From Catalinimonas alkaloidigena (GTDB taxonomy: Bacteria; Bacteroidota; Bacteroidia; Cytophagales; Flexibacteraceae): a stretch of 64,000 bases of DNA. Positions 3,614 through 42,520 of the stretch are shown here, piece after piece. The translations under genes were made by a program, and so were the position numbers. The DNA lies in assembly GCF_900100765.1 (NCBI RefSeq), contig NZ_FNFO01000009.1:248001-312000 (forward strand). The letters run 5' to 3'. The notes below the pieces were generated by a model. That model had not been told where the DNA came from and searched no databases. It saw only the letters and a program-made list of their open reading frames with translations. Each line of letters opens with the position of its first letter. Position 1 is the stretch's first letter.

Positions 3614-4273
3614 TTACTCAAACATGATTTCGCGTTCCCATTGCCCGGCCGGTTGTTGGTACAAGGTCCAGAAGGCCTCTGCAATGTCGGTCGGGTTAAA
3701 ACGCGTGTCGGGCGAGACTGCGCCATCGATGGTGACGGTGCCCACGTGAATGTTTTTGGGCAGCAGTTCGGCATGGAGGCTAAACGCCAGATTCCGCACG
3801 GCGGCTTTGCCGATGCCCAGCGAAGCATGCAGGGGCAGTGGATTGAGGGCAGACCCTCCGCCGGTAATCAGAATCTTCCCCGTCTTCCGGGTACGCATGG
3901 TCGGCAGAACGGCCTGCACACACGAGAGTGCCCCGACGGCGTTGATGCGGAAATCGTGCACCAACACTTCCGGGTCCAGTTGAGAGGGGAGTACTTCGCG
4001 GTAAATGGAGGGATTATAGACCAGCACATCCGGCGCTTCCTGCCGCTCTTCCACCTGAATAAACGCATCGGCCACAGACGCCGGGCTGGCTACGTCGATC
4101 TGGTACGCGTGGGCCTCGGCCCCTTCGTCGCGCAGGAGCTGCGCATATTCCTCAACCCGGTTCAGGGTGCGGGCCATCAGGGCAATGGAAAATCCCTCAC
4201 GGGCAAAGCGACGGGCTACAGCCAGGCTCACGCCCGGCCCTACGCCCACAATCGCACAAAGTGGTGAAGTCAT
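3614..4273 (-). CDS. Atypical short-chain dehydrogenase (SDR) lacking catalytic Tyr
   Basis: A 219-residue Rossmann protein with a glycine-rich NAD(P) motif at residues 7-16 (AIVGVGPGVS), an IDV strand at about 59, and ITGGGSA with Ser141. The usual YxxxK reads LxxxK here: Leu152 takes the place of the catalytic tyrosine while Lys156 is kept, and the NNAG motif is YNPS. The protein is therefore an SDR by fold, but either uses another acid/base or only binds nucleotide. It is convergent with the RAYT gene: the transposase stop (3612) and this stop (3614) nearly touch. Upstream is a separate small acidic gene. The substrate is unknown. Confidence 0.8.
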   Translation of the reverse strand: MTSPLCAIVGVGPGVSLAVARRFAREGFSIALMARTLNRVEEYAQLLRDEGAEAHAYQIDVASPASVADAFIQVEERQEAPDVLVYNPSIYREVLPSQLDPEVLVHDFRINAVGALSCVQAVLPTMRTRKTGKILITGGGSALNPLPLHASLGIGKAAVRNLAFSLHAELLPKNIHVGTVTIDGAVSPDTRFNPTDIAEAFWTLYQQPAGQWEREIMFE

Positions 4274-4331
4274 AGCATCAAAGTCAGAAGCCCAAAAATG
4301 ACAGAATTCCTGAGCTTCCGCAAATCAGTCG

Positions 4332-4604
4332 CTAGAGGGCAATCTCATCGATCGGTTCGTCCCCGTCGATGTAAGCCTCCATGGAGTCGTAGACCGTCAG
4401 GTAATCGGGCTCGCCTTTTTTATCAATTTCGATACGGTACAACTTGCCGTCGACGTCGATGGTTTTGACGCGCGTTTCGGGCTCGTCGCCGGGGCGGTCG
4501 TTGACCACGCTTCCAATTCGGCCGCTCATCATGTCGTTGATGAACTGGGTAAATTCCGCACTGAGCGACTCTTCTGTGGGATCTTGATCTTGCGAAGTAG
4601 CCAT
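4332..4604 (-). CDS. Small acidic protein, unknown function
   Basis: A 90-residue cytosolic-type protein with no signal peptide. The N-terminal 35 residues are acidic and hydrophilic. The C-terminal 45 residues, from VKTIDVDGKLYRIEI to PIDEIAL, look like a compact all-beta fold with alternating hydrophobic positions and Asp/Glu-rich turns. The gene lies 58 bp upstream of the SDR start on the same strand, so co-transcription with the SDR is possible. No domain is recognised. Codon use matches the neighbours, and no competing frame is convincing. Confidence 0.65.
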   Translation of the reverse strand: MATSQDQDPTEESLSAEFTQFINDMMSGRIGSVVNDRPGDEPETRVKTIDVDGKLYRIEIDKKGEPDYLTVYDSMEAYIDGDEPIDEIAL

Positions 4605-4688
4605 AATGGTAATTGCCTTGAAAAAATAAAATAATCAGATTAGCTTTTCTTTACGTGCAATCGTCAAAACGGTTTTCGCCGCGCGTCC

Positions 4689-4696
4689 TACCTTTG
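4689..4696 (+). promoter_or_regulatory. Candidate -7 promoter element for the DUF4340 gene
   Basis: TACCTTTG matches the Bacteroidota -7 consensus TAnnTTTG and lies 77 bp before the ATG at 4774. I see no good TTG at the usual 19-21 bp upstream spacing, so this is a partial match only. Confidence 0.3.
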
Positions 4697-4773
4697 TTAT
4701 TTCTCAGGAAGCGGCGGGAAGACCGGCTGCACAGCACACGCTGCGCACGACGTTACCGTACCTATAATTTCGC

Positions 4774-5739
4774 ATGAAAAAGACCATTTTCCTAATTTTT
4801 CTGCTGGCGGGGCTGGCTGCCGGGGCGTGGTGGGCGTTGCGTAAACACGGCGGACGCACCACGCTCCAACAGGAGGAAACGGCGTTTCAGGTGGAAGATA
4901 CCGCCGCGGTCGACCGCCTGTTTGTGGCCGGAAAAGACAACCAGACGGCGCTGTTGGAGCGCCAGCCCGACGGCCGGTGGCTCCTGAACCAACAATACGC
5001 GGCCGCTCCGGCCAAAGTCGAACTTCTGCTGCGCACCTTACGCGACCTGACCGTAAAACGACCGCTGGGCCAGGCCGAACGCGAGAACATGATTCGGGAA
5101 CTGGCGGTAGAGCACCGCAAGGTGGAAGTGTACCAACACGGGCAACTCACCAAAGTGTTTTTCCTGGGCAATGAAACGAACGACGAGCGGGGCAATTACG
5201 CCCTGATGAAGGGTGCAGAACAGCCGTATGTGGTCTATCTGCCGGGTTTCAACGGGTACCTGACGCCCCGTTTTATGATTGCAGGCGCAGAATGGCGCGA
5301 CAAGGAGGTGTTTCGGGTGCCGCTCGCTTCGCTGCGTCAGATCGCCGTGCAGTACCCTAAAAATCCGGCGGCGGGGTTTACGTTACGGCAGGAGGGGGGG
5401 CGTTTGGCGCTGGACGACCTGCCGCAGGCCGATCCGCAGCGCCTGGAGGCGTACGCCGAGCTGTTTGAAAAAGGACTGTACGTAGAAAACTACCTTTCCG
5501 AACAGGCTACGCTGGCTCCCTACCGCGATTCGTTGCGGGCCGAAGTGCCGGATGTGGTTTTGCAACTGGCCGCCACCCGCAACGAGCCGGTCCAGGTGCA
5601 GGTGTATTATCTGCCGGGCAATCAGGATCGGGTAGCGGGCCTTTTGGGCGAGCAGCAGGAGTTGGTGACGATTCAGTGGCAACTTTTGGAGAAAATGGTG
5701 CAGCCGCGCTCTTTTTTCAACACCTCCCTTTCCGACTGA
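4774..5739 (+). CDS. DUF4340 domain-containing membrane-anchored protein
   Basis: A 321-residue protein. An N-terminal membrane anchor (residues 2-22, KKTIFLIFLLAGLAAGAWWA) is followed by an extracytoplasmic DUF4340 region: an FQVEDTAAVDRLFV strand, then RQPDGRWLLN and the KVELLLRTLRDLTVKRPLG helix, all typical of this family. The C-terminal third (about 175-320) repeats a similar beta-rich pattern. DUF4340 proteins are often found near ABC-type and gliding loci, but here the partners are dnaN downstream and a divergent small gene upstream. The molecular role is unknown. The start codon is clear, since the signal-like helix begins at once. Confidence 0.8.
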   Translation: MKKTIFLIFLLAGLAAGAWWALRKHGGRTTLQQEETAFQVEDTAAVDRLFVAGKDNQTALLERQPDGRWLLNQQYAAAPAKVELLLRTLRDLTVKRPLGQAERENMIRELAVEHRKVEVYQHGQLTKVFFLGNETNDERGNYALMKGAEQPYVVYLPGFNGYLTPRFMIAGAEWRDKEVFRVPLASLRQIAVQYPKNPAAGFTLRQEGGRLALDDLPQADPQRLEAYAELFEKGLYVENYLSEQATLAPYRDSLRAEVPDVVLQLAATRNEPVQVQVYYLPGNQDRVAGLLGEQQELVTIQWQLLEKMVQPRSFFNTSLSD

Positions 5740-35408: not shown

Positions 35409-36563
35409 CTAGGTTTTGACCCGTCCGATCAGAAACGAATTGCAAAGCCCCAGCACCGCGACCAGCGCAAACGACCAGCGCAGGCTGGCGGCTTCGGCAA
35501 TGAAGCCGATCAGCGGCGGACCCAGCAGGAAACCTAAAAAGCCCACCGACGAGACGGCGGCCAGCGCCATACCGGGCGACATGGTTTTGGAGCGGCCCGC
35601 CGCACCATACACCAGCGGTACAATAGTCGACACCCCCATGCCCACCAGCAGGAAGCCGATGGTAGCCGTGACCAGATACGGAAAAAATACCGAGACGAGC
35701 AGCCCCGTCGTGATGAGCAGACCGTTCGTTTGAACGAGGCGTTTCGTGCCGATCCGCGCCGCCAGCCAGTCGCCGACGAAGCGTCCGCCCGCCATGGTGC
35801 TCATAAACGCCACGTAGCCCAGGGTCGTAAGGGACTCAGGTGCGTGCACTTCCTTGTGGAAATAGACACCGCTCCAGTCGAACATGGTGCCTTCGCAGAT
35901 CATGCTGCAAAATGCCACAATGCTCAGTTGCATCAGCGTACGATCAGGCCAGGCGAAGAGCGGCTGATCGGTGCCCTGGTTGATGTCCCGCGCCATGATA
36001 GAATTCTGGGACAACAGCATGAGGATTAGGGCGATGGCTCCGTTGATGCAGAAATGCGTGAAGGTCGAAAGGTCCAGGGAAATGAAGTAGCTCCCCAGCG
36101 CCGCCGCCGTAAACCCGGCCAGACTCCACAGACCATGGAACGACGACATAATCGACCGCTGGTAAAGTTCTTCCACCCCGACGGCCTGCGTGTTGACGGC
36201 AATGTTGTGAATGTTGCCCACCGTTCCGAACAGAAAAAGCGCGCCCACCAGTTGCCACGGATGGTGCACCAGCCCGATCAGCGGCAGCACCAGCGCGTAC
36301 AGGGGCGCAACGATGCGTAAAATGGTCGCACTGCCGAAGCGCCCCACCAGCCAGCCCGACAGCGGAAGGCTGGTCATCAGCCCCATCGGCAGCGCCAGCA
36401 GAATGCTCCCCAGCGCACCGTCGCTCAGGCCGAGTTGTTGCTGGATGATCGGGATGCGGCTGGCCCACGAAGCAAAAAGGAATCCTTGCAGAAAGAAAAA
36501 CGCGCCCACCGCAAACCGGTGTGTTCTGCGGGAAATGGAAACCTGAGCCGTCGTAAAAAACAT
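35409..36563 (-). CDS. MFS transporter (YbjJ-like)
   Basis: A 384-residue 12-helix transporter from the ATG at 36563. The N-terminal half contains FFLQGFLFASWASRIPIIQQQLGLSDGALG, the start motif of YbjJ-like MFS proteins, then LPMGLMTSLPLSGWLVGRFG (motif A region). Mid-protein ICEGTMFDWSGVYFHKE and GYVAFMSTMAGGRFVGDWL are also typical of this subgroup. The C-terminus ends FALVAVLGLCNSFLIGRVKT. Substrate unknown; members are often annotated as fucose permease-like or drug transporters without proof. It is divergent from the cyd locus. Confidence 0.9.
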   Translation of the reverse strand: MFFTTAQVSISRRTHRFAVGAFFFLQGFLFASWASRIPIIQQQLGLSDGALGSILLALPMGLMTSLPLSGWLVGRFGSATILRIVAPLYALVLPLIGLVHHPWQLVGALFLFGTVGNIHNIAVNTQAVGVEELYQRSIMSSFHGLWSLAGFTAAALGSYFISLDLSTFTHFCINGAIALILMLLSQNSIMARDINQGTDQPLFAWPDRTLMQLSIVAFCSMICEGTMFDWSGVYFHKEVHAPESLTTLGYVAFMSTMAGGRFVGDWLAARIGTKRLVQTNGLLITTGLLVSVFFPYLVTATIGFLLVGMGVSTIVPLVYGAAGRSKTMSPGMALAAVSSVGFLGFLLGPPLIGFIAEAASLRWSFALVAVLGLCNSFLIGRVKT

Positions 36564-36778
36564 AGACAAGGTCTTGATAAAAAGTTACTTACAAAGGTGG
36601 GTGAATTGGTGTTGCCTGGATGTAAGATCAAAATTGCAGCTTTGTCGATCAATATTCCTACCCGGATGCGTCTTTTTTACGCAATGGTTCGCGTGGCGTG
36701 TAGCAAACCTGCCGCAGAGGTAGGAGTTCTGGCGATTGGGGGGTACCTTTAGCCACGGATCTCTCTGGCGCTCTGCCT

Positions 36779-36994
36779 ATGCTACCTTCTGGTCCGAAAC
36801 CGCCTTTTTTGCCCATTCAACGTCTGTTTTTGCTGGCGCTCGGCACCGCTTTTCTCTTCGCGCTGCTGTCGCGCCTGTCGCTGGGCGATGCACCTGCCGA
36901 TGCATGGACCTGGAAGAAACTGCTGAAAATCGGGTTGGGGCTTGGGTTTGTGGGGGGCAGCCTTTGGATCTACCTGGCACACCGAAAAACTTGA
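36779..36994 (+). CDS. Small two-helix membrane protein upstream of cydA
   Basis: A 71-residue protein with two hydrophobic segments (about 14-30, LFLLALGTAFLFALLS; and 48-66, KIGLGLGFVGGSLWIYLA) separated by the hydrophilic stretch GDAPADAWTWKKLL, and a basic tail HRKT. Its stop codon lies only 3 bp before the cydA ATG, so the genes are almost certainly cotranscribed and coupled. Known bd oxidases use tiny accessory subunits (CydX, CydS, CydH, each single-helix); this one has two helices and does not resemble them. A role in bd-oxidase assembly or stability is an inference from layout alone. Confidence 0.75.
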   Translation: MLPSGPKPPFLPIQRLFLLALGTAFLFALLSRLSLGDAPADAWTWKKLLKIGLGLGFVGGSLWIYLAHRKT

Positions 36995-36997
36995 GTT

Positions 36998-38419
36998 ATG
37001 GACGTTGAGTTTCTGTCGCGATTGCAGTTCGCGTTTACCATCATGTTCCACTACATCTTCCCCCCGTTTTCGATCGGCATGGGGCTGCTGCTGGTGGTGT
37101 TCGAATCGTTCTACTTCTTCACCCGCCAGAAAGTCTACGAGTCGATCACCCGATTCTGGATCAAGATCTTTGCAGCCAACTTCTCGCTGGGCGTGGCGAC
37201 GGGCATCGTGATGGAATTTGAGTTCGGGACCAACTGGGCGAGCTATTCCCGCTTCGTCGGCGACATTTTTGGTTCGCCCCTGGCCGCCGAAGGCATCTTT
37301 GCCTTTTTCCTGGAATCGGGTTTTCTGGCGATTCTCCTCTTCGGGTGGGATCGTGTGAAGCCCGGCCTGCATCTGTTTGCGACCTGCATGGTCGCGCTGG
37401 GGTCGATGATGTCGGCGTTCTGGATCGTGGTCGCTAACTCCTGGCAGCAGACGCCCGTGGCGTACGAGATTGTGCAGGAAGCGGGGTACGTACGGGCGGT
37501 GATCACCGACTTCTGGGCGGTCGTCTTCAATCCGTCGTCGATGGTGCGGTTTGCGCACGTGCTGGTCGGTGCCTTCATTCAGGGCGCGTTCCTGGTACTG
37601 AGTGTGTCGGCCTTTTACCTGATCAAAAATCGGCACGTCGAAGCGGCGCAGCGGTCGTTCACCTTCGCGCTGATCGTGGCGGCCGTGGCCTCGTTGGTGC
37701 AGCCGCTCATCGGGCACGACCACGCCAAAGTAGTGGCCGAGCACCAACCGGCGAAGCTCGCCGCCTACGAAGGCCTGTACGAGACGGAAAAAAGCGCCCC
37801 TCTCTACCTGCTGGGCTGGACCGACGCAGAAGAACGCAAAACGGTCGGGATCGCCATTCCGGGGATGCTGAGCTTCTTGGTCCACGGCGACTTTACGACC
37901 GAAATCGCCGGGCTCGATCAGGTGCCCCGCGAAGACTGGCCGCCGGTGCAGGCCGTGTTTCAGACCTACCACGCGATGGTGGCACTGGGGATGCTGTTCA
38001 TCGGATTGACGCTGCTGACGCTCTATTTCCGCTGGCGCAGCACCCTGTTCGACAAGCAACGCTGGCTTTTGAGGCTCTACATTCCGGCGGTGGTGTTGCC
38101 AGTGCTGGCCAACGAACTGGGCTGGGTATCGGCCGAACGCGGACGACAGCCGTGGATTGTGCAGGGACTCTTGCGTACGGAAGAAGGCCTTTCCAAGGCG
38201 GTGAGCGCGCCGGAAGTGCTGACCTCCCTGATTCTGTTCGGCATCGTCTACGTGCTGCTGTTCTTTGTGTGGACCTACGTACTGAACCGCGAAATTCAGC
38301 ACGGCCCCGCCGCCCACGACGACCACCTGGAATCGGGCTACACGCAGAAGGGCGAGCGCATCGGTGCGGTGGAGCACTACGTGGGTAAAAAAGGCCGCCA
38401 CTCTCACGACGAAACGTAA
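36998..38419 (+). CDS. cydA: Cytochrome bd oxidase subunit I
   Basis: A 473-residue haem-bearing subunit of the terminal quinol oxidase, which reduces O2 to water with high affinity. Signatures: [20 protein letters not shown] with haem ligand His18, [34 protein letters not shown] with haem ligand His187, and [12 protein letters not shown] (about 370-382) in the Q-loop half. The Q-loop is short (total length 473 versus over 500 in E. coli), placing it in the short-Q-loop class. The C-terminus has a hydrophilic His-rich tail ([15 protein letters not shown]). It is the second gene of the small-protein-cydA-cydB cluster. Confidence 0.96.
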
Positions 38420-38486
38420 TGCTTCTCTCTATGAACTTCTGTGTCCTTCATGTCTCTGTGGTAAACATGTAAAGCAACGCTCAACT

Positions 38487-39563
38487 ATGGATTTCTACGT
38501 CATCTGGTACATCATCATCGGACTTTTGCTGATGGGCTACGCCGTGCTCGACGGCTTTGACCTCGGGGTGGGGGCGTTGCACCTTTTCAGCAAAGGCGAC
38601 CACGACCGCCGCATTCTGCTCAACTCCATCGGGCCGGTGTGGGACGGCAACGAAGTGTGGCTCATCACGGCAGGCGGGGCGCTGTTTGCGGCCTTTCCCA
38701 ACGTGTACGCCACGGCGTTTTCGGGGTTCTATCTACCGTTCATGCTGCTGCTGATCGCCCTGATTTTCCGGGCCGTCTCCATCGAGTTTCGGAGCAAGGA
38801 GAAAAGCACGCGGTGGCGGCAGTTCTGGGACGTCAGCTTTTCGGTGGGGTCCATCGTAGCGGCGCTGCTGTTCGGCATCGCCATCGGCAACATCGTGATC
38901 GGCTTCCGCATCGGCAGCGACATGGAATACCAGGGGACGGTGCTCGATCTGCTGAACCCTTACGCGCTGCTGGCGGGCGTCTTCAACTTGAGCATGTTCG
39001 CCATGCACGGGGCCATCTACCTCAACCTGAAAACCGACGGCGACTTGCAACGGCAGGTGCAGGGGTGGATCCGGCGAACGTACGTGATTTTCATCGTCCT
39101 GTTTGTGCTGCTGACCGCCGCGACGCTCTGGCAAAGTCCCTGGATGATCGCCAACTTCTCGTTCGGGCGGGTGGAACTGCCCGGGCAGCGGCACGAGCTG
39201 GTCGACCGTCATCTGACGCTGCTGTCGGTCGTGGCCTGGACGGTCGTGTTGCTGCTGTTGCTGGCCATCGTCAACATCTCCCGTACCCTGGCGCGGCAGA
39301 AGCGCTACGAAATGTTTATCTCGTCAGGATGCACCATCCTGGCCGTGATTCTGCTCTTTGCGCTGGGCATCTTCCCCAACATGATGCTCTCCAACATCGA
39401 CCCCAATTTCAACCTCGATATCTACAACGGAGCGTCGTCGCACAAAACGCTGCGTACCATGTTTTTTGTGGCGATCTGGGGCCTGCCGTTCGTGCTGGGC
39501 TACACTTCGCTGATCTACTGGACGTACCGGGGCAAGACGCGCCTGACGGAAAGTAGTTACTGA
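38487..39563 (+). CDS. cydB: Cytochrome bd oxidase subunit II
   Basis: A 358-residue polytopic partner subunit. The start at ATG 38487 gives MDFYVIWYIIIGLLLMGYAVLDGFDLGVG, the standard CydB opening with the conserved VLDGFDLG. GPVWDGNEVWLITAGGALFAAFP (about 50-72) and the ending LPFVLGYTSLIYWTYRG are also conserved. It carries no haem but is needed for a stable complex. An in-frame ORF extends upstream into cydA but the added residues are foreign to the family. A 67-bp spacer separates it from cydA. Confidence 0.95.
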   Translation: MDFYVIWYIIIGLLLMGYAVLDGFDLGVGALHLFSKGDHDRRILLNSIGPVWDGNEVWLITAGGALFAAFPNVYATAFSGFYLPFMLLLIALIFRAVSIEFRSKEKSTRWRQFWDVSFSVGSIVAALLFGIAIGNIVIGFRIGSDMEYQGTVLDLLNPYALLAGVFNLSMFAMHGAIYLNLKTDGDLQRQVQGWIRRTYVIFIVLFVLLTAATLWQSPWMIANFSFGRVELPGQRHELVDRHLTLLSVVAWTVVLLLLLAIVNISRTLARQKRYEMFISSGCTILAVILLFALGIFPNMMLSNIDPNFNLDIYNGASSHKTLRTMFFVAIWGLPFVLGYTSLIYWTYRGKTRLTESSY

Positions 39564-39624: not shown

Positions 39625-40371
39625 ATGACCCCCTTTCTTGCAGAATTTATCGGCACCGCGCTCCTGCTTCTTCTGGGCAACGGCGTGGTTGCCAACGTGG
39701 TATTGAACCAGACCAAAGGCCACAATTCCGGCTGGATCGTCATCACCGTCGGCTGGGCAATGGCCGTATTTGTGGGGGTGTTTGTGACGAGCGATTTCAG
39801 CGGCGCGCACCTGAACCCGGCGGTCACCATCGGCTTGGCCACAGCGGGCGTGTTTCCGTGGGCGGACGTACCGGCGTATCTGCTGGCGCAGTTTCTGGGG
39901 GGAGCGCTGGGCGCTACGCTGGTGTGGGTCATGCACCGGCCGCACTATGAGGTCACAGAAAATCCGAACGCCAAAATGGCGACGTTCTGTACCGATCCGG
40001 CCATCCGGAACCTGAGCAGTAACCTGTTTTCAGAAATCCTCGGCACGTTTGTGCTGGTGTTTGCGGTGCTGTTTCTGGCCGCACCGACCTTCTCGGTCAC
40101 CTCATTGCCCGACGCAGAGTTTGGCCTGGGGGCGCTGGGCGCGGTTCCGGTGGCCTTCCTGGTGCTGGCCATTGGCCTGAGTCTGGGTGGCACGACGGGC
40201 TACGCCATCAATCCCGCCCGCGATCTTTCGCCGCGGCTGATGCACGCACTCCTGCCCATCGAAGGGAAACGCGACAGCAATTGGTCGTACGCGTGGGTAC
40301 CGGTCGTGGGGCCGGTCGTGGGAAGTGTACTGGCGGGGCTGCTGTACCTGCTGCTGAGCCCGACCCCCTGA
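39625..40371 (+). CDS. glpF: Aquaglyceroporin (MIP family, GlpF-like)
   Basis: A 248-residue six-helix channel. The two half-helix motifs are HLNPAVT (about residue 64) and INPARDLSPRL (about 195); Asp right after the second Arg is the feature that distinguishes glycerol facilitators from water-specific aquaporins. The start MTPFLAEFIGTALLLLLGNGVVANVVLN is typical. It passes glycerol, small polyols and water down gradients across the inner membrane. Same strand as cydB and 61 bp downstream; the next gene is an antiporter, so no glycerol kinase is adjacent. The symbol is a best match from the motif, not a proven orthology. Confidence 0.87.
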   Translation: MTPFLAEFIGTALLLLLGNGVVANVVLNQTKGHNSGWIVITVGWAMAVFVGVFVTSDFSGAHLNPAVTIGLATAGVFPWADVPAYLLAQFLGGALGATLVWVMHRPHYEVTENPNAKMATFCTDPAIRNLSSNLFSEILGTFVLVFAVLFLAAPTFSVTSLPDAEFGLGALGAVPVAFLVLAIGLSLGGTTGYAINPARDLSPRLMHALLPIEGKRDSNWSYAWVPVVGPVVGSVLAGLLYLLLSPTP

Positions 40372-40444: not shown

Positions 40445-42520
40445 ATGCATCGACTTGTACTGCTCGCTTTTCTCTCTTTTTTTTCGCTTCTCTTTTCGGC
40501 ACATGCTCAGCCGTCCGACCCACCGGCGCGGCCGTCGGATGCTTATCGGTTGTCGGAGCGGCCGCTCGGTAATTTCACCGCAACGGGCCCCGACCACCTG
40601 ATCGGAGAAGGGACGGTAGCGATTGCGGTGCAGGCCCTGAACGAAGCCGGCCAACCCGATACGCTGTTTCAGGGAGCTTATCCGCTGACGGTGAACGGGA
40701 CGAAGCAGACCGTCACATTTGTGCAGGGCAACGCAACGCTGGAGGCGGCTCCGCAGGAAGGGGAAATTCGTCTGGAAGCGGGTTCGGGCGAAACCCAGGT
40801 GGTGGTGGTGCGCCAGATTCCGGCGTGGCTCAGCCTGGTGCCGCCCCTCATCGCCATTGTGATGGCGCTCGTGTTCCGCGAGGTGATCATCTCCCTTTTC
40901 GTCGGAATTTTTACGGGTGCGTTGATCTTGGAAGGTTTCGCGCCCAGTCGCTGGATTCCTGCGCTGTTCACGGTGATCGACCGCTACATCATCAATGCCT
41001 TGAACGACACCGGCCACCTGTCGGTCATTGTCTTTTCGCTCTGCATTGGGGGAATGGTGGCGATCATATCGCGCAACGGCGGCATGGCGGGCATCGTGCA
41101 GAAACTGTCGCGTTACGCCCGCTCGGCACGCAGTTCGCAACTGGTGACGTGGTTTCTGGGCATCGCCATTTTCTTCGACGATTACGCCAACACGCTGATT
41201 GTGGGCAACACGATGCGCCCGGTGACGGACCGCTACCGCATCTCCCGCGAAAAACTGGCTTACATTGTCGATAGTACGGCCGCCCCGGTGTCGGCGGTGG
41301 CCTTTGTGACGACCTGGATCGGGGCAGAAATCGGCTATATCAAAGATGCTACGGAAGTGCTGGGCATCGCCGAAGGCGCGTATTCCATGTTTCTCAGTTC
41401 GTTGCGGTTCGCCTTTTACCCCCTTTTCACGCTGGCGTTCATTTTTATGCTGGTCTGGATGCGCCGCGATTTTGGGACGATGCGGAAGGCCGAACAGCGC
41501 GCGCGTCTGACGGGGCGGCTCAACGAAACCGATAGCGTGGAAGAAGGGGAGGAAGAATCGGCCGACAACTCGTTTGTGCCGGTGCCGGGTGTGCCCTTGC
41601 GGTGGTACAATGCCCTGCTTCCGGTAGTGACCGTAGTGGGCGTCACGCTGGCCGGGTTGATCCATACCGGAACGGCGTCGTCGTACGCGCAAATAGTAGA
41701 AGCCGGAGGCAATCCCGCTGCCGAGACGGTGGGGGCGATCTGGCCGGAAATGTACCGCCTGACGGATGCTACGGAGATCAGCACGATGCGCAAGTTCGGC
41801 CTCCTGATCGGCAACGCCGACTCCTACATTGCGCTGCTATGGGCTTCGCTTTCCGGCCTGATTCTGGCACTCGGCCTGAGTTTCGCACAGCGGATCTTTA
41901 AACTGCAATTTGCGATGGAAAGCATGGTCGACGGTTTCAAAGCGATGCTGCCCGCCATGCTGATCCTGACTTTTGCCTGGGCACTGTCGACCGTGACGGA
42001 AGACCTCCACACCGCCGAATACCTCACTTCACTGTTTTCGGGCAACGTATCGCCCGGGATGATGCCCGCCATCACGTTTATTCTGGCCGCGGCCATCGCG
42101 TTTTCGACCGGCTCAAGCTGGGGCACCATGGCGATTCTCTACCCCCTGATTTTACCCGCCACGTGGAGCATTGCCCAGGCGGCGGGACTGCCGCAGGCCG
42201 AAGCCATGGCCGTGATGTACCACGTGATTGCGGTCGTGCTGGGCGGGGCCGTGTTCGGCGATCACTGTTCGCCCATTTCCGATACCACGATTCTGAGTTC
42301 GCTGGCCAGCAGTTGTCACCACATTGCGCACGTGCGGACGCAGTTGCCCTATGCCGCGACCGTTGCAGGCGTTAGTTTGCTCATGTCAATTCTGATGTTC
42401 AACCTGGGGGCACGCTGGTGGCTGAACTATCCCCTGGGGCTCGCGATTCTGTTCCTGATTGTCCGGTTTGTGGGCAAACCGGTCGAAACAGAGGAAGCGC
42501 CCACACGGGCGCATTCCTGA
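40445..42520 (+). CDS. NhaC-family Na+/H+ antiporter with secreted-type N-terminal extension
   Basis: A 691-residue protein. Residues 1-21 form a Sec-type signal (MHRLVLLAFLSFFSLLFSAHAQ), followed by a soluble beta-rich, Ig-like stretch to about 125. The NhaC permease follows: about ten helices, with FREVIISLFVGIFTGALILE, FFDDYANTLIVGNTMRPVTD (about 235-255) and GSSWGTMAILYPLILPATWS (about 555-575), ending VFGDHCSPISDTTILSSLAS. NhaC proteins exchange Na+ for protons (sometimes malate/lactate in the MleN branch). The N-terminal domain is extra to the standard family and faces the periplasm if the leader is cleaved. Confidence 0.88.
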   Translation: MHRLVLLAFLSFFSLLFSAHAQPSDPPARPSDAYRLSERPLGNFTATGPDHLIGEGTVAIAVQALNEAGQPDTLFQGAYPLTVNGTKQTVTFVQGNATLEAAPQEGEIRLEAGSGETQVVVVRQIPAWLSLVPPLIAIVMALVFREVIISLFVGIFTGALILEGFAPSRWIPALFTVIDRYIINALNDTGHLSVIVFSLCIGGMVAIISRNGGMAGIVQKLSRYARSARSSQLVTWFLGIAIFFDDYANTLIVGNTMRPVTDRYRISREKLAYIVDSTAAPVSAVAFVTTWIGAEIGYIKDATEVLGIAEGAYSMFLSSLRFAFYPLFTLAFIFMLVWMRRDFGTMRKAEQRARLTGRLNETDSVEEGEEESADNSFVPVPGVPLRWYNALLPVVTVVGVTLAGLIHTGTASSYAQIVEAGGNPAAETVGAIWPEMYRLTDATEISTMRKFGLLIGNADSYIALLWASLSGLILALGLSFAQRIFKLQFAMESMVDGFKAMLPAMLILTFAWALSTVTEDLHTAEYLTSLFSGNVSPGMMPAITFILAAAIAFSTGSSWGTMAILYPLILPATWSIAQAAGLPQAEAMAVMYHVIAVVLGGAVFGDHCSPISDTTILSSLASSCHHIAHVRTQLPYAATVAGVSLLMSILMFNLGARWWLNYPLGLAILFLIVRFVGKPVETEEAPTRAHS

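Follow-up and report, generated by a model that had tools for sequence, protein, structure and literature searches.

The 71-codon open reading frame that directly precedes cydA in Catalinimonas alkaloidigena, here named S, is a real coding gene under purifying selection and a sharp marker of one clade, mostly from Bacteroidota, of the cytochrome bd subunit CydA. The sequence evidence makes it probable that S serves cytochrome bd specifically, either as a helper or as an additional subunit. We lean, with slightly better than even confidence, toward a dedicated accessory subunit of this one cytochrome bd clade, a two-helix hairpin that would stabilize CydA.

Gene S and Its Locus

In the window, by which we mean the whole 64,000-nucleotide stretch of DNA that was analyzed, the ORF of S runs from an ATG start through 71 codons to a TGA stop at 36992-36994; the triplet GTT follows and then the ATG of cydA at 36998, in the same reading frame as S. 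These coordinates bear out the original prediction of a 71-residue protein ending 3 bp before cydA. The features of the locus are as follows.

35409-36569, minus strand: MFS transporter gene, divergent from S (Pfam)
36570..36778, no strand: 209-bp gap separating S from the MFS transporter gene; the operon promoter is presumed to lie here
36779..36994, plus strand: S, gene of a small membrane protein with two predicted helices, 71 aa (ORF, family alignment and leave-one-out search)
36812..36874, plus strand: predicted helix 1 of S, residues 12-32 (AlphaFold2)
36902..36988, plus strand: predicted helix 2 of S, residues 42-70, which holds K47, K50, G54, F57 and Y65 (AlphaFold2)
36917-36919, plus strand: codon of the invariant K47 of S (20-row alignment)
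36998..38419, plus strand: cydA, cytochrome bd subunit I, 473 aa (Pfam PF01654, E 3e-168)
38487..39563, plus strand: cydB, cytochrome bd subunit II, 358 aa (Pfam PF02322, E 2.8e-103; NCBIfam TIGR00203)

Both CydA and CydB of the window are clear members of the cytochrome bd oxidase families (Pfam, NCBIfam), and S is apparently the first gene of an S-cydA-cydB unit, which we infer to be an operon with its promoter in the 209-bp gap. Rfam gave no match within 36400-37100. The GC content at third codon positions is 0.62 in S vs. 0.81 in cydA, so composition by itself could not have decided whether S is a gene. Its exact start codon is uncertain; most relatives start 6-9 residues later than the window S, with starts as chosen in the alignment, and residue 11 of the ORF is encoded by a TTG (36809) that could serve as an alternative start. 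Directly after cydB lies a gene of the MIP family (aquaporin/glycerol channel type; 39625-40371), followed by a Na+/H+ antiporter-family gene (40445-42520; both by Pfam). The 67-bp gap between cydA and cydB (38420-38486) contains an odd TTCTGTGTCCTTCATGTCTCTGTGG stretch that looks repeat-like; it occurs once in the genome, with up to 3 mismatches allowed.

S Is a Conserved Coding Gene

A single-sequence search with S in 98 genomes returned its best non-self match in genome G095 (E 2e-4), 17 bp before the matched cydA start, and a weak match in G057 (E 0.12), immediately upstream of cydA. The remaining matches (E 0.005 or worse) were not linked to cydA. Both genomes belong to the same order as the window genome, a 7.1-Mb assembly that shares its order with Algoriphagus, and their CydA sequences are identical to those of Algoriphagus loci in the CydA tree. 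We also inspected the region before each cydA in a set of CydA loci (the best 80 of 279 from named genomes); 19 loci, with CydA 65-76% identical, have a relative of S at the same position. The resulting family alignment has 20 rows, with 21-35% identity to the window S. Residue K47 is invariant in this alignment and F17, L18, K50, G54, F57 and Y65 are near-invariant.

Leave-one-out profiles, run against the upstream regions of 112 loci, recovered 20 of 20 members (E 1.8e-28 to 1.6e-4), some of which are mutually close and hence easy to recover; the window S was recovered at E 4e-15. Of 20 pairs with at least 55% identity, 11 had a finite dS and a dN/dS ratio of 0.03-0.33, the other 9 being saturated. 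Because of the leave-one-out recovery and these low ratios, we regard S as coding and under purifying selection; together with the family alignment, they rule out a chance ORF.

S Is Tied to One CydA Clade

The 21 S-bearing rows group as one clade in a maximum-likelihood CydA tree of 97 rows (SH-aLRT 100; a quick method without bootstrap), and none of 500 label shuffles matched this clustering, the S labels having been assigned by hand from reading the upstream regions. The tree leaves out 15 of the 112 loci: the repeats L002 and L003, 12 misoriented loci, and L096, which has S and whose CydA frame failed the length filter. A profile scan upstream of cydA identified S in 24 of 24 clade loci (E 9.6e-20 or better), a count that includes repeats of the same locus and loci from which the profile was built, and which therefore match by construction. 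Outside the clade, S was found upstream of cydA in none of 84 judgeable loci; the best value among all 88 was E 0.79, four of them being unjudgeable with 92 bp (L084) or 207 bp (L129) before cydA or as pieces of one CydA (L059 and L060). Orienting the loci by motif or by tblastn gave the same outcome.

The two genes overlap by 4 nt in 9 of the 19 relatives and by 11 nt in 4, if the upstream cydA start is used in the latter; 3-15 nt separate them in another 4, and the script did not resolve the spacing in 2. The close coupling to cydA that had been proposed from the window sequence is thus supported by the relatives.

The same tie was apparent at the level of the phylum. CydA (E 1e-20 or better) was present in 160 of 395 phylum genomes, and in 3 of these it is 73-100% identical to the window CydA, the next best being 62%. 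Strong S matches (E 1.2e-20 or better) came from only those 3 of the 395 genomes, each directly before cydA; the S and CydA searches apparently covered the same set, judging by its equal size and shared genome labels. The profile search gave no strong S match in the other 157 of the 160 genomes with CydA, and S is therefore dispensable for bd chemistry in general. Another 16 phylum genomes gave weak S matches (E 4e-4 to 0.01), which we discounted as chance: they lie in long frames (153-771 aa) or stop-containing frames or, in G368, in a 106-aa frame on a contig other than that of its cydA. Whole-genome searches of 13 clade genomes, chosen for having S, returned 14 strong matches, one per cydA and one extra, and neither these nor the 395 phylum genomes have a strong S copy away from a cydA. 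The original prediction is, overall, partly supported by these scans. As a general feature of Bacteroidota, S does not hold up and is confined to one CydA clade. Genomes with cydAB and without S, which had been named as evidence against the prediction, are literally the rule (157 of 160), but they carry other CydA lineages, and all 21 clade rows in the tree have S.

The extra copy is in L068, where S-cydA pairs lie at 665-1753 and 3781-5380, the degraded pair upstream of the intact one. It precedes a second, broken cydA (a 292-aa frame) and is itself shortened; the duplicate appears to be decaying, S along with cydA. Clade members come from Algoriphagus, Nitritalea, Mangrovivirga, Marinigracilibium, Persicobacter, Flexithrix and metagenome genomes. 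One of the latter, labeled Bdellovibrio (L078, 1968-3564), places S and CydA within an otherwise bacteroidotan clade, and may reflect horizontal transfer or a mis-binned contig. The pairwise distances of S and CydA are correlated (r 0.88 over 18 rows, reached by 0 of 2000 permutations), as shared descent alone would also produce. S evolves much faster, with a mean pairwise identity of 34% vs. 75% for CydA.

Predicted Structure of S

AlphaFold2, run on the 20-row family alignment, predicts one helix at residues 12-32 and a second at 42-70 (mean pLDDT 79.5, pTM 0.52), in agreement with the two helices read from the window sequence at the outset. The mean charge (K+R minus D+E) is +1.8 in the N-terminal tail, +1.2 in the loop and +2.05 in the C-terminal tail, and such counts weakly favor a topology with both ends inside. 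Because S and cydA share a reading frame, the two proteins could also be folded as a single read-through chain, a model whose overall confidence is good (mean pLDDT 80.2, pTM 0.75) and in which the forced two-residue link would bias any contact between S and CydA. In a fold comparison, the model matched 10 solved bd oxidase entries (Z 36.5-42.8), matches that span the CydA part only and say nothing on S.

S Differs From the Known Small Proteins of Cytochrome bd

The window S has no Pfam family at E<=1 and no match in NCBIfam or PHROGs. Single members of the family gave weak matches to Pfam models (among the 25 of 31 families listed, FixQ with 3 of the 20 members at E 0.0038 or worse) and to 13 NCBIfam families (1-7 members each); we attribute these matches to chance resemblance between hydrophobic helices. 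The S family profile found nothing convincing in the PDB, where a transhydrogenase helix and others matched at E 0.089 or worse and were judged chance. The collection includes 6rko, 5doq and other bd oxidase entries, and their small subunits, as well as the chain of CydH/CydY (YnhF), were presumably among the chains searched; CydH/CydY was absent from the matches to the profile. S is thus distinct from the established small bd subunits, as anticipated, in that it has no detectable sequence relation to them in the libraries searched. We found no published work on S in the open-access papers searched.

Several small proteins of cytochrome bd nonetheless offer points of comparison. Like S, CydX/AppX (YbgT_YccB, PF08173) and CydS are small hydrophobic proteins linked to cydAB. 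CydX and CydS are described as single-helix proteins positioned along CydA and crucial for assembly and stability (PMC8951039), and the survey of Allen et al. (2014; PMC4325964) links CydX, CydY and CydZ each to a CydA lineage. The likeness of S to CydX therefore includes the bond to a particular CydA lineage and the stabilizing role proposed for CydX (PMC8951039, PMC4325964). The layouts differ: S has two predicted helices and lies before cydA, unlike the one helix of CydX and CydS and the position of the CydX gene after cydB, where that survey sought and located it downstream of cydAB (PMC4325964). S also lacks the CydX motif YxxWxxGx15E/D (Allen et al., 2014; PMC4325964), the sole Tyr of the window S being Y65, which is followed by LAHRKT. 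The absence of a PF08173 match to S in Pfam rules out its identification as CydX. None of the 13 clade genomes had a PF08173 match over the cut-off, and two sub-threshold matches sit inside 451-aa frames. Nor did we find a small hydrophobic ORF within 400 bp after cydB in 18 of 19 clade loci, a span that is shorter where the locus ends (e.g., L062 and L068); L074 has one that is unconvincing.

CydH/CydY (YnhF) of Escherichia coli bd-I is a small extra bd subunit, the class proposed for S, yet it has a single helix, and its gene is an orphan outside the operon (PMC8951039). CydZ (DUF2474) and the CioY/CydY proteins of Campylobacterota resemble S as small proteins paired with bd-type oxidase lineages, and CioY is reported to bind CioA by co-immunoprecipitation (PMC11955535). 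Unlike S, with its upstream gene and two predicted helices, they are described as encoded downstream of cydB and as having one helix (PMC4325964, PMC11955535). The statement in the original prediction that small bd subunits are placed elsewhere overlooks DUF4492 (PF14899), whose gene lies before cydA, and a previously unreported hydrophobic small protein that Allen et al. (2014; PMC4325964) mention for long-Q-loop operons lacking CydX, where it precedes cydAB. That protein may be DUF4492.

DUF4492 is, like S, a hydrophobic protein of about 70 aa with a gene directly before cydA, a position that by itself confers no membership. It has the motif FYY.GF..M..G..LW....IKLF and, by eye, one main hydrophobic stretch, unlike S. 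We detected it in 33 of 60 genomes in a sample centered on a Bacteroidales genome, and a CydA frame directly follows its gene in 25 of 25 Bacteroidales loci fetched (L175-L199). It had no matches in 198 phylum genomes or in G000, and one sub-threshold match in six named relatives. The lack of a Pfam match and an hhalign probability of 0.2% between S and 8 DUF4492 members exclude S from this family. No paper mentioning DUF4492 by name was found among the open-access papers searched; it may be another unrecognized bd partner.

Possible Roles of S

The genetic tie expected of a bd accessory subunit was found for S in the clade, upstream and phylum scans. As such a subunit, S would be made just ahead of CydA, and hence be at hand for it, and would pack against CydA in the membrane as CydX and CydS do, stabilizing the assembly of CydA and its haem/quinol region. 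Translation of the two is probably coupled, given that the S stop codon lies on or very close to the start of cydA. A shared operon and joint vertical inheritance do not prove complex formation, and the fast evolution of S would also fit an assembly or regulatory protein under loose constraint. The main rival draws on this last point: S could be a transient assembly or haem-insertion factor for the CydAB of the clade that is absent from the mature enzyme, which we consider possible but on balance unlikely. Its place at the head of the unit, translated just before CydA, suits such a factor, as does the lack of a recognizable CydDC, the usual help: CydD exceeded the curated cut-off in 0 of 16 genomes, in a search that gave matches in each of the 14 control genomes and carries no information below that cut-off. 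But the CydD call is equally missing in G019, G037 and G121, which have CydA without S, so S is no specific stand-in, and its alignment has no invariant His, Cys or Met able to hold haem.

The overlaps of 4 nt (ATGA) or 11 nt seen in 13 of 19 relatives could also mean that S is mainly a translational leader that brings ribosomes to cydA, its peptide being of little importance. We give this reading very little weight, given that residues of S are conserved under purifying selection, that K47 is retained in rows with as little as 21% identity to the window S, and that 4 of 19 relatives have no overlap. Equally improbable, in our estimate, is a membrane protein of separate function (e.g., a small transporter or stress protein) that has only the promoter in common with cydAB. 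The partnership with CydA is deduced from sequence comparisons, and S members do match several membrane families weakly, at chance level; yet neither the 395 phylum genomes nor the 13 clade genomes had a strong S match away from cydA, the sole further strong copy precedes the broken cydA of L068, and the cydA genes of other clades are not preceded by S.

If S is an accessory subunit, small bd subunits would have evolved repeatedly from unrelated proteins, each paired with its CydA lineage, and S would add to them a two-helix hairpin made before CydA. One could then ask which surfaces of CydA depend on a helper and whether a hairpin is able to do the work of a single helix. S would also serve as a marker gene for the bd branch of Algoriphagus and relatives and give a name to a small gene family for which the searched libraries contain no model. 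A bolder proposal, which we hold to be doubtful, is that S founds a class of two-helix hairpin bd subunits that arose once with its CydA clade, docks on a CydA face that differs from the single-helix sites or extends beyond them, and alters oxygen or quinol access. The 22 clade-specific positions of CydA are distributed over all nine helices, with the most (4) in TM2, and do not pick out a single face for S binding; the count comes from one clade run with helix limits from the model, with 3 clade rows omitted as near-identical and 7 other rows as distant. At position 432, where TM9 ends, 17 of 18 clade rows have Glu and 68 of 69 other rows have Lys, and we speculate that this Glu may be a partner of the invariant K47 of S.
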